From positions 1-33,751 of the forward strand of contig JAJQGV010000089.1 in assembly GCA_021200215.1 (NCBI GenBank): a stretch of DNA of 33,751 nucleotides. Direction: 5' to 3'. Within the stretch, counting starts at the first letter, position 1, and every line of letters begins with the position of its first letter. Origin of the DNA: Ruminococcus sp. Its GTDB lineage: Bacteria; Bacillota; Clostridia; Oscillospirales; Ruminococcaceae. Positions 2,669 to 29,665 of the stretch are shown one piece after another. The translations under genes and the position numbers were made by a program. Below the pieces are notes generated by a model that was given only the letters and a program-made list of their open reading frames with translations, searched no databases and was not told the origin of the DNA.

Positions 2669-4153
2669 ATGAAGTATAAAAATCCAGTAATTAAAGGATT
2701 CTATCCCGACCCTAGCGTGTGTAAGGTTAATGGAAAGTACTATTTAGTGTGTAGTAGTATGCAATACTTTCCAGCAGTACCGCTCTTTGAAAGTGAGGAT
2801 TTAATCAATTGGAAACAGATAGGCAACTGCTTAACTAGAGAAAGTCAGATAGCTCTAAGAGGTGTAAACAGTTCAGGCGGAGTATTTGCTCCCACCATTA
2901 GATATAATAATGGACGCTTCTATATGGTTACTACTAACTCTACCACTCAGCAGAACTTCTATGTCTATACTAATGATATCTATGCAGAATGGTCTGAACC
3001 TATATATGTAAATCAAGGAGGTATTGACCCATCACTATACTTTGAAGATGGCAAAACATACTTCTTAAGTAACGGTTCTGATGATATTGGCGTTGAGGGT
3101 ATAACTCAATGTGAGATTGATATTGAAACTGGTGAAAAATTATCACCAAGTGTGAACATATGGCAAGGTACGGGTGGACGCTATATAGAAAGCCCTCATA
3201 TGTATAAGATAGGTGAATACTACTATCTAATGGTTGCTGAGGGTGGTACAGAATACGGTCATATGGTTACATATGCTAGAAGTAAAGACATCTATGGAAA
3301 GTTTGAAAGCTACCCTTATAATCCAGTACTTACTAATAGAAATTTAGGCGGATTTGAAATACAAGGGGTAGGTCATGGGGACTTAATCCAAGATGAGTAT
3401 GACCAATGGTGGATATTACATCTAGGTTTTAGACAGATTGACCAATGGTTGCCATACCATCACTTAGGTAGAGAAACTTTTTTAACTCCAGTGTACTTTA
3501 ATAAAGATGGTTGGTTTACTGCTGGTTATAATGGTACTACTATCCATGAGTTTGAAGTGAAATATCCTAGCAAGATTACACAGCTTGAACAGAAAGTTTA
3601 TACCTTTGATAATACTAATCTAAAGTTGGATTGGTTACATATTCGTATACCTAATATGCAAGACTACTACTTTTACGATAATACTCTAACTTTAATAGGT
3701 ACACATATCACCTTAGACGATGTGGATTCACCTACCTTTATAGGTCTACGTCAAAAGGATTTTGATGCTACTGCTACTTGTGATATATCTGTAGAAAGTG
3801 GTTTAGGTGGTATTACCATCTTCATGGACGAGCAACAACATTATGACCTATATGTTAAAAAGTTAGACAATAGTTATACTATCACAGAAAAATTAAACGT
3901 TGGTGATATTAAACATATACAAAATAGTATATCAATAGGGGAGTATAGTTCTATAACCCTAGAGGTTACATCTAATAACTTCGCATATACATTCTCTGCC
4001 ATAGTAGATGGCACTAAACACATCTTAGGTACTGCACAGACCAAGTATCTATCTACTGAGGTGGCTAGTGGCTTTACGGGAGTAATTATTGGATTGTATG
4101 CTCAAAATGGTACATCTAAGTTTAAAAACTTTAGATTAGAATATCTTAGTTAA
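2669..4153 (+). CDS. Glycoside hydrolase family 43 (beta-xylosidase / alpha-L-arabinofuranosidase type), cytoplasmic
   Basis: 494 aa; KNPVIKGFYPDPSVCKVNGKYYLVCSSMQYFPAVPLFESEDLINWKQIGN and GGRYIESPHMYKIGEYYYLMVAEGGT are GH43 hallmarks; no signal peptide. Confidence 0.93.
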   Translation: MKYKNPVIKGFYPDPSVCKVNGKYYLVCSSMQYFPAVPLFESEDLINWKQIGNCLTRESQIALRGVNSSGGVFAPTIRYNNGRFYMVTTNSTTQQNFYVYTNDIYAEWSEPIYVNQGGIDPSLYFEDGKTYFLSNGSDDIGVEGITQCEIDIETGEKLSPSVNIWQGTGGRYIESPHMYKIGEYYYLMVAEGGTEYGHMVTYARSKDIYGKFESYPYNPVLTNRNLGGFEIQGVGHGDLIQDEYDQWWILHLGFRQIDQWLPYHHLGRETFLTPVYFNKDGWFTAGYNGTTIHEFEVKYPSKITQLEQKVYTFDNTNLKLDWLHIRIPNMQDYYFYDNTLTLIGTHITLDDVDSPTFIGLRQKDFDATATCDISVESGLGGITIFMDEQQHYDLYVKKLDNSYTITEKLNVGDIKHIQNSISIGEYSSITLEVTSNNFAYTFSAIVDGTKHILGTAQTKYLSTEVASGFTGVIIGLYAQNGTSKFKNFRLEYLS

Positions 4154-4174
4154 TAGATATAATACAAGTAAAGA

Positions 4175-4212
4175 TATCGGAATGGCTATAAAACTATTCC
4201 GATAAGTTTTAT
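4175..4212 (+). terminator. Rho-independent terminator after GH43
   Basis: TATCGGAAT...ATTCCGATA 9-bp stem followed by AGTTTTATT. Confidence 0.7.
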
Positions 4213-4265
4213 TGTGTAAATATATTCTGCATTAAAAAAAAATTTGCAAGATTTCAAAAAAACAC

Positions 4266-4323
4266 TTGCATTTTTTCTCGATTTGTAATATTATATATAT
4301 AGTGATTTTTTTAGATTAATCTA
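4266..4323 (+). promoter_or_regulatory. Promoter plus palindromic candidate operator upstream of aminotransferase
   Basis: TTGCAT-N17-TATTAT (4266-4294), then perfect 12-bp palindrome TAGATTAATCTA at 4312-4323. Confidence 0.5.
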
Positions 4324-4351
4324 TGTTGATGTTTTAGGAGGACTTAATATT

Positions 4352-5629
4352 ATGAAACTTTCAGAAATGAATAAAGATGAATTAACATCATTCAAAAATA
4401 GCGTTCAAGATGAGTATGATGCTTTTAAATCGCTTGGACTTAAACTAAATATGGCTAGAGGTAAGCCATCTAGTGAACAGTTAGACCTTTCTATGCCTAT
4501 GTTAGATGTACTATCTAGTACGAGCGAACTAAACGACCTAGACGGCGTGGACGTTCGCAATTATGGTGGCTTAGAAGGCATTCCAGAGGCTAGAAAGTTG
4601 ATGGGAGATATTCTAGGTGTTAAATCTAGTGAGATATTAGTGTATGGTAATGCAAGTTTAAAGGCTATGTACGATACCATCGCTAGAAGTTATTGTTTCG
4701 GTGTGTTGGGTTCTACTCCGTGGTGTAAGTTAGATAAGGTTAAGTTCCTATGTCCAGTCCCTGGTTATGATAGGCATTTCGCCATCACTGAACAGTTTGG
4801 TATAGAGATGATTAATATTCCAATGACCCAAGATGGCCCTGATATGGATATGGTCGAAACCTTTGTAAACAATGATGAATCTGTTAAGGGTATTTGGTGC
4901 GTTCCACAGTATTCTAACCCTAGTGGTATCTCTTATTCTGATGAAACCGTTAAGAGGTTTGCAAACCTATCTCCAAAGGCTGAAGATTTTAGAATCTTTT
5001 GGGATAATGCTTACTGTATACATCACCTTGTCGATGAGCCTAAGTGCATATTAAACATAATGGACGAATGCAAAAACAACGGCAAAGAAGATATGGTATA
5101 TATTTTTGGCTCTACTTCTAAGGTTACTTTCTCTGGAGCAGGAATATCTGCTATTGGCTGTAGTGAAAAGAATCTTAAGGAGATTACCGACAAACTAACT
5201 AAAGCTACCATAGGCTACGATAAGGTAAATCAACTTAGACACTGTAAATTCTTTGGTGATATAGATGGCGTTAAACAACATATGAAAAAACACGCTGAAA
5301 TATTAAAACCTAAGTTCGATTGTGTAATATCGTGGTTAGATAAAGAGATAGCTCCACTAGGTATTGGTAGTTGGATAGAACCTCAAGGTGGTTACTTTGT
5401 ATCATTTGATTCCCAAAGCGGTTGTGCTAAGAGGATAGTTCAACTTTGCAAAGATGCAGGAGTTGTATTGACTGGTGCAGGTGCAACGTATCCATACGGC
5501 AAAGACCCACAGGATAGCAACATTAGAATAGCACCATCATATCCACCAGTTGAAGAACTTGAAAAGGCTATGGAACTATTTTGCATATGCGTTAAGTTGG
5601 CTACTGCAGAAAAGTTATTAGCTGAATAG
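4352..5629 (+). CDS. Aminotransferase class I/II, PLP-dependent (aspartate aminotransferase-type, AspT-like family)
   Basis: 425 aa; LKLNMARGKPSSEQLDLSMPML, NASLKAMYDTI, PGYDRHFAITE, PQYSNPSG, GSTSKVTFSGAGI PLP-lysine region. Confidence 0.9.
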   Translation: MKLSEMNKDELTSFKNSVQDEYDAFKSLGLKLNMARGKPSSEQLDLSMPMLDVLSSTSELNDLDGVDVRNYGGLEGIPEARKLMGDILGVKSSEILVYGNASLKAMYDTIARSYCFGVLGSTPWCKLDKVKFLCPVPGYDRHFAITEQFGIEMINIPMTQDGPDMDMVETFVNNDESVKGIWCVPQYSNPSGISYSDETVKRFANLSPKAEDFRIFWDNAYCIHHLVDEPKCILNIMDECKNNGKEDMVYIFGSTSKVTFSGAGISAIGCSEKNLKEITDKLTKATIGYDKVNQLRHCKFFGDIDGVKQHMKKHAEILKPKFDCVISWLDKEIAPLGIGSWIEPQGGYFVSFDSQSGCAKRIVQLCKDAGVVLTGAGATYPYGKDPQDSNIRIAPSYPPVEELEKAMELFCICVKLATAEKLLAE

Positions 5630-5644
5630 TTATAGTTATATCTA

Positions 5645-5681
5645 AAAACATCGACTAGAAAATAATCTTAGTCGATGTTTT
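5645..5681. terminator. Bidirectional terminator between convergent genes
   Basis: AAAAACATCGACTA...TAGTCGATGTTTT, A-tract and T-tract on either side. Confidence 0.75.
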
Positions 5682-5716
5682 ACTATATGGATTTTTAAAA
5701 TTTTGTTAGTGAGTAT

Positions 5717-6766
5717 CTATTTAATTGGAACTACTTCTCCGTTTAACTCTATAGCTACTATATTAGTGAAGTCTATTAAGTCTAAGTTTAGATGTGCGTA
5801 GTCAATAAATATCTTATATGTGTAGCTATGGTTTATATCGTTTGCTAAACTTTGATAGACCATGCCATCTCTATTTATGAGTATCTTTCTACCATCGTTA
5901 TAGATGTAATACATTGTGAACTGCTGAAACAATAGATTTTCTTGTCTATAGTAGTCAACCGAATCACTACTGAAGTTGAAGTCTATTCTAAATGGAGAAT
6001 ATTCTATACTTTCTAAGATTGTAGAAGTACCATCTTTAAGGGTTATGCTCTTATTGATATTATCCACGGTTATAGTTGTATCGTAGATTTCCATACTTAT
6101 ATCAAAAGATATATTAAATTCAAAGTCTGTAATAAAGTTATAGTTATCATCGTAGTGACCAAAATCACTGATGTATATGTATAGGTCATTTAAAGGGGTA
6201 CATATATCATTAGACTGTGTTTCAAGTACAACCGATATAATGTTATCCCTAGAGGTTATAGAGTCTATATTAAATCCTAAAGATTCGTTATTATCGTCCT
6301 TATTAATAACTTTGCTTTCATTAAGATTTATAGTAGTGTTGTTAGTTATGACAAAGTTTTCATCTTTTGGAAGAATAATATCCATAGTGACATAGTTAGT
6401 GTATCTATCGTTGATGTAACCAGTTACATTAAAATCCATATCTTCATAAGATATCTTTAGGTTGTTAAGTATAACATCGGTTTGAATATACTCATTAAGG
6501 GCAGAGCTATCTAAGGTGTCGTTGTAGTTGCCACTGTAACTATATGGAGTATAAGTATCATCTAAGAGTTTACGCTTTAGAATATCTATAGCATCGCTTT
6601 CTACTGCGAATACTCCTACACCAGATAGCGATATAACTACTGCTAGTGCTATCAACATTGCACTAGGTCTATGTCCCTTAGATTGACTTTGATTTGGAAT
6701 ATCTAATGCTTTTAACTTCCAATCGTTTGGGGTTTTAATGTAGTCAAGATAGTTTAATCTTTTCAT
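5717..6766 (-). CDS. Anti-sigma factor-like membrane protein (DUF4179-like), partner of ECF sigma
   Basis: 349 aa; short cytosolic N-terminus, one TM (AMLIALAVVISLSGVGVFAV), extracytoplasmic beta-rich region; ATGA overlap with upstream sigma gene. Confidence 0.7.
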   Translation of the reverse strand: MKRLNYLDYIKTPNDWKLKALDIPNQSQSKGHRPSAMLIALAVVISLSGVGVFAVESDAIDILKRKLLDDTYTPYSYSGNYNDTLDSSALNEYIQTDVILNNLKISYEDMDFNVTGYINDRYTNYVTMDIILPKDENFVITNNTTINLNESKVINKDDNNESLGFNIDSITSRDNIISVVLETQSNDICTPLNDLYIYISDFGHYDDNYNFITDFEFNISFDISMEIYDTTITVDNINKSITLKDGTSTILESIEYSPFRIDFNFSSDSVDYYRQENLLFQQFTMYYIYNDGRKILINRDGMVYQSLANDINHSYTYKIFIDYAHLNLDLIDFTNIVAIELNGEVVPIK

Positions 6767-7248
6767 AAAGTTTCACCTAACCTTTCTAAGTTTTCTAGTT
6801 GAATTTTAAGTCTTTCCCTACCACGTTTAAGGCGTGTTTTTACCGTAGATTGTGGACAGTTTAATATCTTAGCAATATCGGGTATAGGATAGCCCTCATA
6901 GTAGTACAGATAGATAACATCTTTATACTTTTGAGGCAACTTTAAAACCATCTCTAAGAGTTCTCTATCGTAGAAGTTAGGATTATCTGCAACTATAAGA
7001 CTATCTATACTTTCAGTGCTATGAATAATCAACTTTCTGTATAGGGTAGTACATTCGTTTAAGGTTACCTTTATGAGCCATCTTTTAATACCTTCCTCAT
7101 CTAGTTTAGATACATTGTTGAGGTTTTTGTATAGCTTAAACATAACGTTCTGATAGCAATCTTGGGCATTATGATAGTTCCTGCATTTAATTAAACATAT
7201 TCTAGTAACGGTATCGGAAAATGTTTCTATAATATCCTCATAACTCAT
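6763..7248 (-). CDS. ECF-type RNA polymerase sigma factor
   Basis: Translation from MSYEDIIETFSDTV...; sigma2-like NAQDCYQNVMFKLYKN and sigma4-like LPQKYKDVIYLYYYEGYPIPDIAKILNCPQSTVKTRLKRGRERLK. AGGAGGG RBS before the ATG at 7248; the tracked start at 7362 lies inside the upstream terminator. Confidence 0.9.
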   Translation of the reverse strand: MSYEDIIETFSDTVTRICLIKCRNYHNAQDCYQNVMFKLYKNLNNVSKLDEEGIKRWLIKVTLNECTTLYRKLIIHSTESIDSLIVADNPNFYDRELLEMVLKLPQKYKDVIYLYYYEGYPIPDIAKILNCPQSTVKTRLKRGRERLKIQLENLERLGETL

Positions 7249-7275
7249 ATAGATATCCCTCCTTTTAAATAATTT

Positions 7276-7324
7276 TAGAAACGTTTCTACTATATGTAAC
7301 GCTTTAGATTCTAAAAAAGTTTCA
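7276..7324 (-). promoter_or_regulatory. Candidate ECF-type promoter of the sigma/anti-sigma operon and adjacent palindrome
   Basis: Reverse strand TGAAAC (7319-7324)-N17-CGTT (7298-7301), then perfect palindrome TAGAAACGTTTCTA (7276-7289). Confidence 0.5.
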
Positions 7325-7329
7325 TAGTT

Positions 7330-7368
7330 AAAAAAAAATTTTGGATTGCCTTTTTTAGGCAATCCAAA
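7330..7368 (-). terminator. Rho-independent terminator of the xylA-xylB-7374 transcript
   Basis: Reverse strand TTTGGATTGCC...GGCAATCCAAA stem then AATTTTTTTTT. Confidence 0.8.
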
Positions 7369-7373
7369 GTATG

Positions 7374-7913
7374 TTATTTGCTATTAGTCATTTTAGGTTT
7401 TAACTTCTTGTAATATATTTCAATGAAGTTACTTAGAACGTAGTCATACATTAAGAATACTGGATTCGTAGCTATCAAAAGGATTAACATACCATGTTCA
7501 AAGTATTGATTCATCTGTTCTGCGAGTTCTTCCATACCAAATAGTTTGAAAGTTATCTGAAACGCTATGGTAACCGATATATTATAGTACAACAGTTTAA
7601 AAAATCCTCTTAAAAACTTAGTTTTAATCTTATCGAAGATAGTTTTTAGTATTGGATACAAACCAAATAGGAATATAAACATTATAGAACTTTCCTTATC
7701 GAACGTTACAAACAGCGACAACAACGATACTGAAGTGTATGTTAAAAAAGCCCACCCAGTGCTAACCTCTTCTTTTACAATCATCATTAAAGTTCCTGCA
7801 ACCATTGGAAGTGTAAGGCTTAATATTGGAATAACTCCTGTTAAGAACATACTAACTAAACACAATGCCGAGATTATTCCCCCTAGAGCTACTTTATAAC
7901 TAGTACTATTCAT
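7374..7913 (-). CDS. Small multi-TM membrane protein, ECF-transporter-S-component-like, function unknown
   Basis: 179 aa, about 5-6 TM segments; starts 3 bp after the xylB stop. Confidence 0.6.
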   Translation of the reverse strand: MNSTSYKVALGGIISALCLVSMFLTGVIPILSLTLPMVAGTLMMIVKEEVSTGWAFLTYTSVSLLSLFVTFDKESSIMFIFLFGLYPILKTIFDKIKTKFLRGFFKLLYYNISVTIAFQITFKLFGMEELAEQMNQYFEHGMLILLIATNPVFLMYDYVLSNFIEIYYKKLKPKMTNSK

Positions 7914-7916
7914 AGT

Positions 7917-9440
7917 TTATAGGTTGGCTAACTTTTGGCACTGTTCCTTAATTGCTGGATAGATTTCTCTATACAGTTGATAGTACTTCTCATACTGTGG
8001 AACGTTTTCTTCTATAGGTGATTGAACCTTATCCACCCTTATGATGGTTTTACAAGCTTCTTGAACACTTGAATATATTCCTGAACCCGTTAGTGCTAAT
8101 ATACCTACTCCAAGGGCAGGGCCTTCTTTAGATGATACTGTCTTAACGGGACAAGCATATAGGTCTGCTAACATCTGACGCCATAGTGGAGAAGTTCCAC
8201 CACCACCACAAGCCATCATGTTGTTTACGTTTATGTTCATCTCTCTGAACACTTCCACACAATCACGTAGAGAGTATGCAACACCTTCTAGGACGGCTCT
8301 AAGCATATGCGACTTTCCATGTATTGCAGATAGTCCAAAGAACATACCTCTAGCGTTAGGGTCTAGGTGAGGCGTTCTTTCACCCATTAGATACGGTAAA
8401 TATAATAGTCTGTCTGCACCTACTGAAATCTTTTCTGCTTCCTTATCCATTAGATAGTACTCATCTACACCCATAAGTTTAGCAGTTTCCTTTTCCGAAG
8501 TACAGAAGTTATCTCTAAACCATTTAAGCGATAGTCCTGCACCTTGAGTAACTCCCATAACGTGCCAACAGTTTGGAACTGCACAACAAAAGGTATGCAC
8601 TCTGCCCATAGTATCTATAGTAACATTTGAGGTATGTGCGAATACTACTCCACTAGTGCCTATAGTAGTAAAAGCCTTACCATCTTCAACTACACCCGTA
8701 CCGACTGCTGCCGCCGCATTGTCACCTGCACCACCGACTACTATAGTTCCTTTCTTAAGTCCTGTTATGTCTGCAACCTTTTGAGTAACCTCTCCAGTAA
8801 CGTCGGGGCTTTCATACACTTTACCGAGCATATCTTCGGTGATGTTTAAAGCATCTAACATTACAGATGACCATCTTCTATTTGGAACGTCTAAGAGTTG
8901 CATACCAGAGGCATCAGATACTTCTGTAGCAAGTTCACCAGTGAGCATTAATCTAACATAGTCTTTAGGAAGTAGTATATATCTACACTTTTCAAAGATT
9001 TTAGGTTCATTTTTCATAACCCATCTAATTTTAGATGCAGTAAAACCAGTCAATATAGGGTTAGCAGTGATTTCAATAACCTTTTCAGCACCTACTATTT
9101 CAGTGAGTTCTTCACATTCCTTACCAGTTCTTTGGTCACACCAAATTATAGACTTTCTTAGAACGTTGTAATCCTTATCTAGCATTACTAAACCGTGCAT
9201 CTGCCCAGATAGTCCAATGCCTTTGATATCTTTACTATCGATGTTGCTCTTTTCAAGTACTGCCTTGATAGTGGTTATAGTAGCGTTGTACCAATCTAAT
9301 GGGTCTTGTTCTGCCCAACCATTCTTTTCTTGATATAATGGATATTCTACAGTATGTGATGCTATTACATTTCCTATTTCATCGAATAGTACTGTCTTAG
9401 TACCACTAGTACCCAAATCGACACCTATTACATATGACAT
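7917..9440 (-). CDS. xylB: Xylulokinase
   Basis: 507 aa; MSYVIGVDLGTSGTKTVLFDE, EQDPLDWYNAT, GLSGQMHGLVMLD, IIWCDQRT; FGGY kinase fold; next to xylA. Confidence 0.96.
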   Translation of the reverse strand: MSYVIGVDLGTSGTKTVLFDEIGNVIASHTVEYPLYQEKNGWAEQDPLDWYNATITTIKAVLEKSNIDSKDIKGIGLSGQMHGLVMLDKDYNVLRKSIIWCDQRTGKECEELTEIVGAEKVIEITANPILTGFTASKIRWVMKNEPKIFEKCRYILLPKDYVRLMLTGELATEVSDASGMQLLDVPNRRWSSVMLDALNITEDMLGKVYESPDVTGEVTQKVADITGLKKGTIVVGGAGDNAAAAVGTGVVEDGKAFTTIGTSGVVFAHTSNVTIDTMGRVHTFCCAVPNCWHVMGVTQGAGLSLKWFRDNFCTSEKETAKLMGVDEYYLMDKEAEKISVGADRLLYLPYLMGERTPHLDPNARGMFFGLSAIHGKSHMLRAVLEGVAYSLRDCVEVFREMNINVNNMMACGGGGTSPLWRQMLADLYACPVKTVSSKEGPALGVGILALTGSGIYSSVQEACKTIIRVDKVQSPIEENVPQYEKYYQLYREIYPAIKEQCQKLANL

Positions 9441-9489
9441 TTAAAAACAACTCCTTTTTTAATGTAGTATTTTATATTTTGAAATATAG

Positions 9490-9515
9490 GCGGATATATT
9501 GCAATCCGCCTAATA
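9490..9515. other. Intercistronic hairpin between xylA and xylB
   Basis: TAGGCGGAT-atattgca-ATCCGCCTA 9-bp stem, no U-tract following on the minus strand. Confidence 0.6.
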
Positions 9516-9536
9516 GATATATTTATAACAAACTAA

Positions 9537-10859
9537 TTATAAGTTAAACATAATGTTATTCATAATGCTTTCAAGCATCTCTTGACGACCGCTCTTAACA
9601 GCAGATACTACTTCACCCTTTTCAAGAGCATACTTTTCAAGGTCAGCCATAGTAACCTTACCATCAATGATATCTTTACCGATGCCAGTATTCCAAGATG
9701 AGTATCTATCTGCAACGAATTGGTCAAGTCTGCCATCTTCAATCATCTTAGTAGCGATTCTTAAACCTAAAGCGAAAGTATCCATACCAGCTATGTAGCT
9801 ATGGAAGATGTCTTCAGGTTCAAAAGAGCCACGTCTAGCCTTGCTGTCGAAGTTTAGACCACCATTAGTAAAGCCACCAGCCTTTAGAACTTCATACATA
9901 CATAGGGTAGCGTCGTATATGTTAGTAGGGAATTGGTCGGTATCCCAACCTAGAAGCATATCGCCTTGGTTAGCGTCTATAGAACCGAATACTCCATTAA
10001 TACGAGCAGTTCTTAGTTCATGTTGGAAAGTATGTTGTGCAAGTGTAGCATGATTAGCCTCTATGTTCATTTTAAAGTCATCGATTAGGTTGTACTTACG
10101 TAAGAATCCTAAAACGGTAGCGGTATCGAAATCGTATTGATGTTTAGTAGGTTCTTTTGGTTTAGGCTCAATGTAGAAGTCACCAGTGTAGCCTATAGAA
10201 CGAGCATAGTCAACGGTCATTTTCATCAAACGAGCCATATTATCTAGTTCTAAGCCCATATTTGTATTTAGTAGGGTTTCATAGCCCTCACGACCGCCCC
10301 AAAAAACGTATCCTTGACCACCTAAAGCTATAGTACTTTCAACAGCCTTTTTAATCTGTGCGGCAGCGTAAGCGAACACATCAGCATTAGGAGAAGTACC
10401 TGCACCATGCATATATCTAGGGTGGTCGAAACACTTAGCAGTACCCCAAAGGAGTTTTTTACCTGTTTCAGATTGTTTCTGTTTTAGCATATCCACAACT
10501 ATATCTAGTTTTTCATTAGTTTCAGCTAACGAGCTGTATTCAGGGGATAAATCTCTATCGTGGAAACAGTAGTAATCAATAGATAGTTTGTCCATGATTT
10601 CAAAGGCAACATCAACTTTATTCTTAGCGATTTCTTCGGGAGTAGTACCACCCCATCTTTTATCGGTAGTACCACAACCGAACATATCAGTACCATCACC
10701 GCCCATAGTATGCCACCATGATAGTGCGAACTTAAGTTGCTCTCTCATAGTCTTACCATTGATAACTTCATCTGGATTGTAGTATTTAAAGGCTAATGGG
10801 TTAGTTGAACTCTTGCCTTCATATTGGATTTTACCAATCTCTTTAAAAAATTCACTCAT
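9537..10859 (-). CDS. xylA: Xylose isomerase
   Basis: 440 aa; [86 protein letters not shown]. Confidence 0.97.
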
Positions 10860-10890
10860 AGGAATTTACCTCCAAAAATTTAATGTGTTT

Positions 10891-10917
10891 ATCATATTTA
10901 GATGTTGTACATCTAAA
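10891..10917 (-). promoter_or_regulatory. xylA promoter/operator candidate
   Basis: Reverse strand TTTAGATGT-aca-ACATCTAAA perfect 9-bp dyad (10897-10917) directly followed by TATGAT -10-like hexamer. Confidence 0.45.
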
Positions 10918-10939
10918 AAGATTTTAAGCTAATAGAATG

Positions 10940-11797
10940 TTACTCTTCACTAGTAGAAGTATCATCTGAAGTATCCTCATCGTCTGAACCAAATAGCCTA
11001 TCCGACACCTTTCCATATAGGTCAGAAATAGTATCTTTAATGTTAGTAATACGGGTTTTGTAATCTAGGAATGTAAACCATTCATTTTCTATTGCATCAC
11101 TGTTGCGAAAACGTAACTCATCGTCAATGTATAGGTCATCTTCACGCCATTCAATCTCTACATCTCTTCTTTCTCTAATGTTGTAGACTATTCTTTCATA
11201 GTCCTTAGATATGAAAGCTATACCATTATAGTAGATGTCATAGGTATTAGGTTCTACATAGATTTTTGTACTACCAGTAGAACTATCGATAGTATCAATT
11301 ATGTAACATCTGTATGTACCGCTTTCGGATACGTAGTTTTCAGACTTAGTATCTCTAGTCTGACCGACTATAAGGTTACTATATAAAAAGTACGCTATAA
11401 CTGCCATTATGTATATCATAACGTACGTAGTACCTATAATAGTTTTAAGATTTTCACTAGCACCACATAGAAAGAACATCACTACAGATAGTACCGCTAT
11501 TGGTATTACTAATATCCAGTTACCCCAACAAAACATAACCACTGGAAGTATTAAAAGTAGAGAAAGCATGGAAATTATAGAGGTGATTAGATTCTTTCTA
11601 GTATAAATCATAATAGCACCTAATACCACAACTACAATCGCTATAGTAATGCCAAAGGTTTTAGTATTGGTTATAACTACATCATAAAACAGAGCCATAT
11701 ACGATAGGATTACCGTTAACCCCCCCAACGTTAGACTAAATATGGATACACACCTTTTAGTCCATTTGTTGTTAAAAAAATCTTTTAATAAAGCCAT
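10940..11797 (-). CDS. Hypothetical membrane protein (multi-TM N-terminus, soluble C-terminal domain)
   Basis: 285 aa, several hydrophobic segments, acidic Ser/Asp/Thr tail; GAAAGGAGT RBS. Confidence 0.75.
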   Translation of the reverse strand: MALLKDFFNNKWTKRCVSIFSLTLGGLTVILSYMALFYDVVITNTKTFGITIAIVVVVLGAIMIYTRKNLITSIISMLSLLLILPVVMFCWGNWILVIPIAVLSVVMFFLCGASENLKTIIGTTYVMIYIMAVIAYFLYSNLIVGQTRDTKSENYVSESGTYRCYIIDTIDSSTGSTKIYVEPNTYDIYYNGIAFISKDYERIVYNIRERRDVEIEWREDDLYIDDELRFRNSDAIENEWFTFLDYKTRITNIKDTISDLYGKVSDRLFGSDDEDTSDDTSTSEE

Positions 11798-11871
11798 AAA
11801 AATAGTTTACTCCTTTCACTACAGAAAATATCTAATTTATTATTTCTGTTTCATACTAAACGGCTGATTAA

Positions 11872-11900
11872 ATTATACCATGTTAATATCTAAGTTACAA
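11872..11900 (-). promoter_or_regulatory. sigma-A type promoter for the 285-aa membrane protein
   Basis: Reverse strand TTGTAA-N17-TATAAT. Confidence 0.6.
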
Positions 11901-11985
11901 GAGAAATTTCTATTTTTTATTGCCTAGTATTTAAAAAAAATTTTTACGCAAAGATATAATATATAGATTTTAACATATTTCGTAC

Positions 11986-12035
11986 GTTTCAACTCACGCT
12001 CGGTATATTATCGGAGTGCGACGTGCGTACATTAA
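11986..12035 (-). repeat. Dispersed repeat copy A (CRISPR-repeat-like)
   Basis: Reverse strand TTAATGTACGCACGTCGCACTCCGATAATATACCGAGCGTGAGTTGAAAC; matches copy C with 2 mismatches over ~46 nt. Confidence 0.8.
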
Positions 12036-12142
12036 GGGTACAGAAGTTACATTAGCAAAGGAATCTTTAATACTATTTTAGCAGATATTTTCTAAAATGC
12101 AATACCTTGAATCAAATTTTTTAGAAAATTTTTAAAAAACTC

Positions 12143-12219
12143 TTGCAATATGTTCTAAAGTATGATACACTCTTAATTAGAACTGTTGGAAATGTATTGC
12201 CTACTGAAAACGTTTCCAA
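12143..12219 (+). promoter_or_regulatory. Promoter and cre/LacI-type operator upstream of GH31
   Basis: TTGCAA-N17-TACACT (12143-12171); TGAAAACGTTTCCA at 12205-12218 is one mismatch from the CcpA cre consensus TGWAANCGNTNWCA; also TTGGAAA-N20-TTTCCAA inverted repeat (12186-12219). Confidence 0.6.
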
Positions 12220-12258
12220 AAAAAGTACGTTATTATTGTAAGGAGGATTTCTAAAAGT

Positions 12259-14628
12259 ATGAAATTTTCAGATGGTCTTTGGCTTAATCAAAAGGGTTAT
12301 GAGGTTAAATATGTTTCTCAAGCCTATAAAACTACTACCGATAAAAACTCTGTAACCGTATTAGCTACACCTTGTACTATATACAACAGAGCTATGACCT
12401 TAGGTGGTGAAAACTTAGAGATTACTTATACATCTAAGGCAGAAAACGTTATTAAGGTATCTATAAAGCACTTTAAGGGCGTTATAGATAATGCTCCTAA
12501 GTTTGAACTTAACGAGGATTTAGGTTATACACCAACTATCAACAATACCCATGATAAGGTGGAACTAATCTCTGGTGATACTAAGGTAGTAATATCTAAA
12601 GGTCAAAGTTGGAATGTAGAGTTCTTCTACAAAGATAAAAAGTTGACTGGTGGTGGTTGGAGAGCTACATCTTATATACAAGAAAGTCAGTTCCATGCAA
12701 ATGCTAGATTAAATCTTCAAGCAGATGACCCTTTTTGGACATATCCAGCAGACCCACACACTACATACGTTAGAGAACAGCTAACTCTATCTGTTTCTGA
12801 GTGTATATATGGTTTTGGCGAGAAGTTTACTCCGTTCGTTAAGAATGGTCAAGTGGTGGAAACTTGGAACTCCGATGGTGGTACGTGTTCCGACCAAAGT
12901 TATAAGTGTATACCATTCTACATATCTTCTAGGGGATACGGTATATTTGTAAATAGTTCCGATAAGATTTCCTTTGAAGTTGCTTCCGATACCATCTCTA
13001 AGGTATCGTTTACTATCCCTGGTGAAAGTTTAGAATACTTCGTAATAGGTGGTGAAAACTTAGAAGAGGTGCTATCTAACTATACCACTTTGACGGGTAA
13101 ACCTGCATTGCCTCCTGCAAGTTCGTTTGGTTTGTGGCTATCTACATCGTTTACTACTAACTACGACGAAAAGACCGTTAATGAGTTCATAGACGGCATG
13201 GCTAAGAGAGATATTCCTCTACAGATGTTCCACTTTGATTGCTTTTGGATGAAAGAGTTTGAATGGTGTGGCTTTGAATGGGACAGGGATTGCTTCCCTA
13301 ACCCTAAAGAAATGCTCTCCCGCTTAAAGAGTAAAGGGTTAGGCATATGTGCTTGGATAAACTCTTATGTTGGACAAAGTTCTAAACTGTTCGATGAGGG
13401 CGTTGAGAATGGATACTTTATCAAAAAGTTAGATGGCAGTGTATTTCAAACCGATATGTGGCAACCCGCTATGGCTATTGTGGATTTTACTAACCCTAAG
13501 GCTTGTGAGTGGTTCAGTGGCAAGGTTAAAGAACTTTGTGCTACTGGTGTTACTGCTATAAAAACTGACTTCGGCGAAAGAATTCCTACTAAGGGAATTA
13601 AATACTATGACGGCTCTGACCCTATTAAGATGCACAACTACTACACCTACCTATACAATAAGACCGTGTTTAATGCCCTAAAAGAATATTACGGCGAGAA
13701 CAATGCTTGTCTATTTGCTAGAAGTGCTACAGTTGGCGGACAAAAATTCCCCGTTCACTGGGGCGGAGATTGTTCTGCTGAATATTCATCTATGGCAGAA
13801 ACTATTCGTGGTGGATTATCACTATGTGCATCTGGTTTCGGATTCTTTAGCCATGATATAGGCGGTTTTGAACAGACCGCTTCCCCTGATGTATACAAGC
13901 GTTGGTGTGCCTTTGGTTTAATGTCTACTCACAGCAGATTACATGGTTCTACATCGTATAGAGTGCCTTGGGCTTATGAAGAGGATACTCCAGACAATCC
14001 CGAAAATGCTTGTGCAGTCCTTAGATACTTCACTAAGTTAAAAGGTAGGTTGATGCCTTACCTATACGCTCAAGCAGTTAAAACATCTACGGTAGGCGTC
14101 CCTATGATGAGAGCTATGGTTATAGATTATGCTAACGAACCTGCTTGTCTATATTTAGATTCTCAATATATGTTAGGTGATAATCTGCTATGTGTTCCTG
14201 TAATGAATGAAGAGGGCATTGCTCAATTTTATGTGCCTAATGGAACTTGGACAGATATTTGTACTGGTGAAACGTATCAAGGCGGTAAGTACTTCGATAA
14301 AAAGTGCAACTTCCTAGAAATGCCTATATTGGCTAAACCTAACAGTATAGTAACCTTTGGTGACTTTAATATGAATGTTATCTACGATTACGTTCAAAAT
14401 GCTGAGTTTAAAATATATAACCTTGAAGATGGCTTGACCGCTACTACTAAAATCTATGATGATAAGGCTAATCTAGTTATGGAAATGGTAGCTATCAGAA
14501 ATGGCAATACTATTCAAGTTGAGTTTACTCAAACCGATAAATCTTTCAAGATTACCGCTATTTCAAAAGGCAAAGAAATCTCTGTAAATGTTGATGCTAA
14601 TTCTAACAGTGCGGTTATTAATCTATAG
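12259..14628 (+). CDS. GH31 alpha-xylosidase (YicI-like)
   Basis: 789 aa; MKFSDGLWLNQKGYEVKYVSQAYK, YGFGEKFTPFVKNGQ, FHFDCFWMKEFEWCGFEWD, AIKTDFGERIPT, HWGGDCSAEYSSMAETIRGGLSL. Confidence 0.95.
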   Translation: MKFSDGLWLNQKGYEVKYVSQAYKTTTDKNSVTVLATPCTIYNRAMTLGGENLEITYTSKAENVIKVSIKHFKGVIDNAPKFELNEDLGYTPTINNTHDKVELISGDTKVVISKGQSWNVEFFYKDKKLTGGGWRATSYIQESQFHANARLNLQADDPFWTYPADPHTTYVREQLTLSVSECIYGFGEKFTPFVKNGQVVETWNSDGGTCSDQSYKCIPFYISSRGYGIFVNSSDKISFEVASDTISKVSFTIPGESLEYFVIGGENLEEVLSNYTTLTGKPALPPASSFGLWLSTSFTTNYDEKTVNEFIDGMAKRDIPLQMFHFDCFWMKEFEWCGFEWDRDCFPNPKEMLSRLKSKGLGICAWINSYVGQSSKLFDEGVENGYFIKKLDGSVFQTDMWQPAMAIVDFTNPKACEWFSGKVKELCATGVTAIKTDFGERIPTKGIKYYDGSDPIKMHNYYTYLYNKTVFNALKEYYGENNACLFARSATVGGQKFPVHWGGDCSAEYSSMAETIRGGLSLCASGFGFFSHDIGGFEQTASPDVYKRWCAFGLMSTHSRLHGSTSYRVPWAYEEDTPDNPENACAVLRYFTKLKGRLMPYLYAQAVKTSTVGVPMMRAMVIDYANEPACLYLDSQYMLGDNLLCVPVMNEEGIAQFYVPNGTWTDICTGETYQGGKYFDKKCNFLEMPILAKPNSIVTFGDFNMNVIYDYVQNAEFKIYNLEDGLTATTKIYDDKANLVMEMVAIRNGNTIQVEFTQTDKSFKITAISKGKEISVNVDANSNSAVINL

Positions 14629-19665: not shown

Positions 19666-19694
19666 TTGACATATTACTCTTTTATATGTATAAT
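19666..19694 (+). promoter_or_regulatory. Consensus sigma-A promoter of the lipoprotein gene
   Basis: TTGACA-N17-TATAAT, exact consensus. Confidence 0.85.
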
Positions 19695-19766
19695 GTAAGT
19701 TGTAGCTAATGTGTATCGCTACTAGAAGATATATTTTAATATTTTTAGAAGAAGGAGATTTTTAAA

Positions 19767-20720
19767 ATGAAAAGCTTAAAAAAAGCACTAGTATGTATTT
19801 CACTAGTATGTTGCTTATCGGTTGGTGCTATAGGTTGCAGTAGTTCTGATTCCGATGGAGATACTTCTCAAACAGATGCTGATGCTAGCGTATCTGTAAG
19901 CGACGGTAATGCAGAAGTTACAGATGCTGAAAATCAAGAAACAGACGAGCAGGGTAATGTAGTAACTAATGCAGATAGTACATCTAGTGATGATGACAGT
20001 GACAGCGATAGTAACAACGACGGTGATAGTACAACTCAAGAAACTGTGGCATTAACCGATTCCGAGGGTAACGTAGTCACCGATGATGATGGTAACGTGG
20101 TAACTCAAATAGTAGTAAACAGTAACAATAGTTCGACTACTACATCTTCTAACGGACAAACTACTGACAGTGATGGTAACGTAGTTACCAATAACAACAG
20201 TAACAGTAACAATGATGGTGACAGTGACAGCGATGATAACAATGACAGTTCTATTTACTTCGCTAAGAACAGATATTCAACATTCATTTGGATGTCTGAA
20301 GATACTTCTAATAGGTATGAATCTGGTATAATGGCGGAGATTGCTGTTAAAGTCTTAGACGACGCTACAGCTGGTGACTATTCAATGGAGTTTAACTACG
20401 TTGAACTATACGATACCAATGGTGAAGAAGTTCCTTTTACCGTTCAAAATGGTACTATTACTGTAGGTAAAGCATCATCGGTTAGTGAACAAGGTGCTGC
20501 TACTAGTGGTGTTAATTATCGTTTAGATAACGCTACCGCTCAACCTGGTGATGTCGTTAAGATTAAAGTACATCTTGATAACAATAGCGGTATCGCAGTT
20601 ACTAGAGTTGAATTAAAGTACGATAACAAGGCTTTAGAGATTCAAAGTATATCCGCTTCGGGTGCTTTCTCTGACCAAATTATTGAGAGTGCTTTAAATT
20701 TAGAGAGTTCTATATCATAG
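19767..20720 (+). CDS. Lipoprotein with Ser/Asp/Asn-rich linker and cohesin-like C-terminal region in unusual order
   Basis: 317 aa; lipobox LSVGAIGC; repeated xGNVVT motif in linker; GIMAEIAVKVLDDATAGDYSMEF..NGEEVPFTVQNGTITVG followed by NYRLDNATAQPGDVVKIKVHLDNNSGIAVTRVELKYDNKALEIQSIS. Confidence 0.75.
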   Translation: MKSLKKALVCISLVCCLSVGAIGCSSSDSDGDTSQTDADASVSVSDGNAEVTDAENQETDEQGNVVTNADSTSSDDDSDSDSNNDGDSTTQETVALTDSEGNVVTDDDGNVVTQIVVNSNNSSTTTSSNGQTTDSDGNVVTNNNSNSNNDGDSDSDDNNDSSIYFAKNRYSTFIWMSEDTSNRYESGIMAEIAVKVLDDATAGDYSMEFNYVELYDTNGEEVPFTVQNGTITVGKASSVSEQGAATSGVNYRLDNATAQPGDVVKIKVHLDNNSGIAVTRVELKYDNKALEIQSISASGAFSDQIIESALNLESSIS

Positions 20721-20753: not shown

Positions 20754-20788
20754 GTGGAGCGTCTAAAAGTATCGTTTAGACGTTCCAC
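20754..20788 (+). terminator. Strong hairpin after lipoprotein gene (probable terminator, weak U-tract)
   Basis: GTGGAGCGTCTAAA-agtatcg-TTTAGACGTTCCAC 14-bp stem with one G-U. Confidence 0.55.
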
Positions 20789-29470: not shown

Positions 29471-29473
29471 ATA

Positions 29474-29665
29474 TCTTAGATAGAGGTGCGATAGAGATAA
29501 GTATTCTATGCTAAGAACAATATCGAGTTCGTTAAGATGTTAGGTATAGAGGAAAGGCAATATCGCCGAAATGCTAAAATGTATCGATATGGTTTTAGCG
29601 TTGGGTACAGACTTAATAGGTTTGTAACTGTCATCATGGTTATGATGGAGAGCTATCGGCATATA
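29474..29665 (+). ncRNA. Lysine riboswitch (L box)
   Basis: GATAGAGGTGCGA...AAGTAT...GAGGAAAGGCAATATCGCCGAAATG...TGGGTACAGAC...AACTGTCATCATGG...GGAGAGCTATCGGC; upstream of asd-dapA-dapB. Confidence 0.93.

Follow-up and report, generated by a model that had tools for sequence, protein, structure and literature searches.

A conserved ruminococcal lipoprotein with cohesin halves in swapped order, very likely a circularly permuted cohesin

The window analysed here is a stretch of 33,751 nucleotides from Ruminococcus sp. (contig JAJQGV010000089.1 of assembly GCA_021200215.1). Between leuA and the ilvB-leuC-leuD-leuB genes lies an open reading frame for a secreted protein, with the following features:

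19666-19694, plus strand: sigma-70-type promoter, TTGACA-17-TATAAT, 12 of 12 consensus bases (consensus match only)
19750-19759, plus strand: ribosome-binding site (Shine-Dalgarno), AGAAGGAGAT, read in the sequence
19767-20720, plus strand: ORF of 317 amino acids with an ATG start; lipoprotein with a putative circularly permuted cohesin
19767-19838, plus strand: lipoprotein signal peptide with lipobox AIGC and Cys24, read in the sequence
19839-20249, plus strand: low-complexity Ser/Asp/Asn/Thr linker of ~137 residues (~25-161), with TDSEGNVVTDDDGNVVT-type repeats (VTDxxGNVVT-type), read in the sequence
20250-20468, plus strand: C-terminal cohesin half, residues ~162-234, from Pfam matches, the family profile and AlphaFold
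20268-20294, 20316-20354, 20373-20414 and 20436-20465, plus strand: predicted strands of the C-half, read as beta6-beta9
20469-20510, plus strand: new linker of ~14 residues, KASSVSEQGAATSG, connecting what are the C- and N-termini of a canonical cohesin
20511-20717, plus strand: N-terminal cohesin half, residues ~247-300 matching Pfam
20511-20540, 20553-20588, 20592-20624 and 20634-20657, plus strand: predicted strands of the N-half, beta1-beta4
20679-20699, plus strand: low-confidence strand, read as beta5
20754-20788, plus strand: strong hairpin with a 14-bp stem, 34 nt 3' of the stop codon, a possible transcript end

The N-terminus of the protein has the positive charge, the hydrophobic stretch and the lipobox cysteine of a lipoprotein (MKSLKKALVCISLVCCLSVGAIGC), and the ~156-residue cohesin-like domain closes the chain. 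The promoter match lies 73 bases 5' of the start codon. The hairpin region has a folding energy of -28.3 kcal/mol (z -4.6), and no T-run follows the hairpin. The consensus promoter, the Shine-Dalgarno sequence and the strong hairpin together point to a separate transcript, hence the gene is likely to be transcribed on its own, an inference from sequence alone. A preliminary description of the locus had reported a lipoprotein with a lipobox and a Ser/Asp/Asn linker, a strong hairpin after the stop and no downstream continuation of the domain. All three claims held, and HMMs specific for either half found no remnant in the window flanks.

Elsewhere in the window, positions 2669-14628 hold genes for xylan and xyloglucan use, and a riboswitch precedes asd, dapA and dapB:

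2669-4153: GH43 with a beta-xylosidase C-terminal domain
6763-7362: ECF-type sigma factor
7917-9440: xylulokinase
9537-10859: xylose isomerase
12259-14628: alpha-xylosidase
29473-29663, plus strand: lysine riboswitch (RF00168, 113.9 bits)

The preliminary description had also claimed that the part of the domain resembling the C-terminal half of a cohesin precedes the part resembling the N-terminal half, and had proposed a single permuted cohesin. Scored separately against the Pfam Cohesin profile (PF00963, curated cut-off 24.1 bits), the N-half of the window protein matched profile positions 3-52 with 32.6 bits (E 1.1e-7), and the C-half matched positions 84-139 with 15.3 bits (E 0.024), which is below the cut-off. 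The whole domain scored 43.1 bits in two pieces in its native order and 46.0 bits in one piece, spanning positions 3-139, once rotated. Joined in canonical order, the trimmed halves quoted in the preliminary description likewise gave a single continuous Cohesin match (E 6.1e-11).

The same analysis was extended to a set comprising the window protein and nine diverse relatives. In native order, the C-terminal piece of the domain matched Pfam Cohesin positions ~2-57 in all ten, and a second Cohesin stretch was counted in nine. With the halves exchanged, one continuous match over positions ~2-139 was obtained in every member (to 116 in one), and rotation raised the score in 10/10, in the best case from 54.2 to 62.5 bits. 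The C-half, weak alone in the window protein, is significant in relatives and in the family profile. A rotation scan with an HMM of canonical ruminococcal cohesins placed the best cut in the linker between the halves in most of 34 members. Searched against PDB sequences, a native-order profile of these 34 members found 33 chains at E <= 0.01, nearly all of them cohesins. On 1aoh, profile positions 85-137 aligned with residues 4-58 and positions 23-73 with residues 96-147, and the swap was repeated with 3ul4 and 3kcp. The rotation test and the comparison of the family profile with PDB rule out a chance resemblance of the C-half.

The canonical order, N-half before C-half, was met neither in any of the ten scanned members nor in the 34-member profile. 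The swapped order and its conservation are thus shown. Since the Pfam cut-off is met with the order swapped, the domain is a permuted variant rather than a standard member of the family. It has the attributes of a natural circular permutant, namely rotated strands, old ends joined and retention in relatives, the strand order resting on prediction only. Three independent lines, namely the rotation against Pfam, the swap against solved cohesin sequences and the conserved order, make it very likely that this is a permuted cohesin-family domain, as the preliminary description had proposed.

AlphaFold models, built with six sequences only, predict a single compact domain, all-beta and with about nine strands, both for the window protein (pLDDT 74.3, pTM 0.71) and for the R. 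flavefaciens homologue (pLDDT 74.4, pTM 0.74). The strands of the window model can be read in the order beta6, 7, 8, 9, 1, 2, 3, 4, with a low-confidence beta5 last. On this reading the fold was opened close to the beta5-beta6 hairpin, a position inferred from the sequence alignment and from general knowledge of the cohesin fold. Foldseek searches of PDB with both models placed no cohesin near the top, which is expected because Foldseek compares structures in chain order. The cohesin topology itself, a nine-stranded flattened jelly roll, is therefore predicted and not shown. Engineered circular permutants of beta-sandwiches (glucanase 1ajo and 1ajk; SOD1 5j0f) occur among the weak Foldseek matches and represent the same type of rearrangement, but those are man-made, whereas the permuted cohesin is natural and conserved. 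The linker between the halves is the least conserved part of the domain apart from the last strand, the candidate for beta5. In type I cohesins, beta5 belongs to the dockerin-binding sheet. As the last strand is both unconserved and of low confidence, beta5 may be altered or absent here.

A search for related loci with the window protein alone returned nothing, and a profile search returned five, R. flavefaciens included. Counting full-length or near full-length matches to a four-member profile in a short ORF, we found the architecture in 44 of the 398 genomes sampled from the GTDB family, in ten genera (g1, g6, g20, g28, g29, g110, g121, g131, g133 and g142). Carriers include the isolate R. 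flavefaciens XPD3002, several Ruminococcus MAGs and a genome assembled as a single contig of 2,573,208 bases (G141). The swapped order occurs in 34 non-redundant loci from at least eight genera, with more divergent copies in two further genera. The proteins are ~250-400 amino acids long, with the N-half at the C-terminal end. All members with an intact N-terminus have a lipobox (the pattern matches in 31 of 34; L032 has AYAC; two are truncated at contig ends), and 23 of the 34 carry a linker repeat like that of the window protein. Both halves contain invariant residues, and a WLD motif is strongly conserved in what is read as strand beta6.

The gene directly follows leuA in the window and in two other loci (L135 and L130) and lies near leuA in a further one (L134). 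Its position directly downstream of leuA in three genera and nearby in a fourth suggests that in these genera it is probably an old gene passed on by vertical descent. Genus g6 has two near-identical permuted-cohesin genes in tandem right after leuA (L083, 837-1739 and 1971-2873), a recent duplication. No further permuted gene was found outside the GTDB family in 297 genomes of the order; the best match there, in another family (L181, genome G460), is a secreted protein with two canonical cohesins and a dockerin. A plasmid collection yielded no match.

Both halves match PF00963, the family of type I and type III scaffoldin cohesins (CipA 1aoh; R. flavefaciens ScaB and ScaE), and the rotated domain exceeds the cut-off over positions 2-139; like those cohesins, the protein is secreted and found in dockerin-rich species. 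It differs from the scaffoldins compared in its swapped halves, in carrying a single module at the extreme C-terminus of a lipoprotein, and in having neither a dockerin nor a sortase motif on the same chain. The anchoring scaffoldin ScaE of R. flavefaciens is likewise a single-cohesin protein of the cell envelope proposed to hold dockerin partners, but the cohesin of ScaE is canonical and its C-terminus carries a sortase signal (PMC4081043, PMC5301203), whereas the protein described here is anchored by a lipid at its N-terminus and has a permuted cohesin. Other cohesin-bearing proteins of these genomes are ScaF-like cohesin-dockerin adaptors (L001 in the genome of the window, and L136-L141), which differ in their canonical order, ordinary signal peptide and own dockerin. 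Similar in layout are canonical lipoproteins of genus g121 (L082 196-1251, L084 3024-3914 and L085 3-524), which also end in a single cohesin and resemble the permuted proteins in their linker repeats; the two copies that are complete have a lipobox. Their cohesin of ~130-155 residues is unpermuted and in normal order. In each of the three arrays, one such gene lies beside two or three permuted copies.

We found no earlier description of a permuted cohesin in the open-access literature searched; subscription papers and supplements were outside the search. As far as that literature shows, the permuted cohesin is previously undescribed, as a variant of a known cohesin type. Published catalogues in which divergent cohesins of R. 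flavefaciens are listed (PMC4081043, PMC5301203) could already include the protein without remarking on its permutation.

All 44 carrier genomes are dockerin-rich, defined as having at least 40 first-look dockerin candidates, and the family is absent from all 343 dockerin-poor genomes; by genus, it occurs in 10 of 17 dockerin-rich genera and in 0 of 109 others. One further dockerin-rich genome (G198) has a permuted-cohesin fragment at a contig end and was included in the Fisher tests. These tests ignore relatedness within genera, and the co-occurrence counts are phylogenetically clustered. The association with dockerin-rich genomes is shown. In the genome of the window, 55 dockerin matches stand against just two for cohesin, namely the permuted lipoprotein and the ScaF-like cohesin-dockerin protein. 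The latter (L001 1381-2292, contig C132) is the sole canonical cohesin match of the genome; the ORF that follows it (from 2387) is also secreted and runs off the contig piece. Strong canonical cohesins are also few in g28 genomes and in G407. The g28 genomes additionally encode proteins of weak cohesin likeness that have a Thr-rich stalk and end in a sortase-like tail (TSDVLPVAGAAAALVVIGGVALVAKKRK; L152, L158 and L159).

Ten dockerin-rich genomes lack the permuted cohesin, so it is not required by every dockerin system. Among them are the genomes of g89, which we take to be the genus of R. albus, inferred from CBM37-like C-termini among other features. The g89 genomes contain no permuted copy and, as canonical cohesins, only weak ones with a TM segment or a CBM37-like tail. 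The permuted cohesin was therefore rejected as an answer to the R. albus orphan dockerins. In three g89 loci (L091, L099 and L107), weak cohesin-like modules are fused to a C-terminal domain resembling R. albus CBM37; these could conceivably be cohesins that escaped notice in a genus described as lacking them.

On this basis we favour, by a modest margin, a membrane-tethered dockerin receptor, a role inferred from co-occurrence and not from binding data. The lipid on Cys24 would anchor the protein in the membrane, and the ~137-residue linker would carry the module into or through the cell wall, its reach being inferred. Within the module, the old N- and C-termini, adjacent in cohesins, would be joined by the ~14-residue linker; the strands would run beta6-7-8-9, linker, beta1-2-3-4 and possibly 5, with the new ends opening near the beta5-beta6 hairpin. 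The module would then bind dockerins of secreted enzymes or of the ScaF-like adaptor, and enzymes would thereby be kept at the cell surface. Taken as a whole, this explanation, a permuted-cohesin lipoprotein holding enzymes through their dockerins, seems to us the better bet, though not by much. The secretion and cohesin likeness of a scaffoldin are met; the assembly of dockerin proteins is inferred without biochemical data, and no published demonstration of dockerin binding by a permuted cohesin was found in the open-access literature searched.

The rival that survives best accepts the permuted cohesin fold and denies dockerin binding, assigning the module another surface role, such as contact with cell-wall polymers or with another protein. 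This remains possible. In its favour, cohesin-like modules are known without cellulosomes (cited in PMC4081043, PMC4300822), conservation is poor in the tail assigned to beta5, and ten dockerin-rich genomes manage without the permuted cohesin. Against it stand the strict limitation of the family to dockerin-rich genomes, the strong conservation of WLD in the strand read as beta6, and the position of the protein as one of only two cohesin matches facing 55 dockerin matches in its own genome.

The other option in the preliminary description was a relic, left when two tandem cohesins lost the halves on the outside; the gene would then be decaying, or its half-modules would act separately. Circular permutants usually arise when a domain is duplicated and the outer halves are subsequently lost, and canonical and permuted lipoprotein genes adjoin in the g121 arrays. 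However, the same order with the same ends recurs in the 34 loci from at least eight genera, the outer halves are gone, both halves are constrained and contain invariant residues, and AlphaFold predicts one compact domain. With half-specific HMMs, none of the 34 loci showed a C-half downstream or an N-half upstream; one weak N-half match lies beyond L040. We therefore regard this reading as very unlikely and reject a decaying relic, while outer-half loss from tandem cohesins may still be the route by which the permutation arose. The g121 arrays may be a record of that event. A tree of rotated permuted and canonical cohesins was poorly resolved and did not reject a single origin (p-AU 0.667); a quick cohesin tree, itself weak, contained at least three order changes.

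Also very unlikely is intermolecular closure, in which the C-half of one chain completes the N-half of the next to form a domain-swapped surface chain. Only ~14 residues join the halves, and a permuted sandwich could, by inference, swap. Canonical cohesin ends lie side by side, however, so a 14-residue linker is ample within one chain, and a single chain is predicted as a compact domain. An assembly deletion between two full cohesins, also raised in the preliminary description, is excluded: the source is a MAG of 164 contigs, but 44 genomes, among them the single-contig G141 and the isolate R. flavefaciens XPD3002, share the architecture, and the leuA neighbour is conserved.

The dockerin-receptor reading also has a bolder form, unlikely at present but not excluded, in which cohesin-poor, dockerin-rich ruminococci, the one studied here among them, would run a two-part cellulosome of minimal design. 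The many dozens-strong set of dockerin enzymes and the ScaF-like adaptor would be served by the permuted-cohesin lipoprotein as membrane anchor, and the permutation would shift the tether to the edge of the dockerin-binding sheet, changing the load bearing of the bond.

Cellulosomes are defined by their cohesins, and whether a species is considered to have one depends on cohesin counts. Since the conserved swapped-order module appears only as fragments in searches, such inventories may miss or misread it. The family spans ten or more genera of gut bacteria that degrade fibre, R. flavefaciens included, and order-based searches see only half-modules; inventories of R. flavefaciens-type and related genomes may thus overlook or misread an entire class of docking modules anchored in the membrane. 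The binding partners of orphan dockerins in ruminococci are an open question, stated for R. albus (PMC4081043). The two cohesin and 55 dockerin matches in the genome of the window bear on that question, although R. albus-like genomes lack the family. An array that holds both canonical and permuted lipoproteins would provide a natural experiment on the origin and the mechanical effect of circular permutation, and a permuted cohesin may offer a new attachment geometry for designer cellulosomes.
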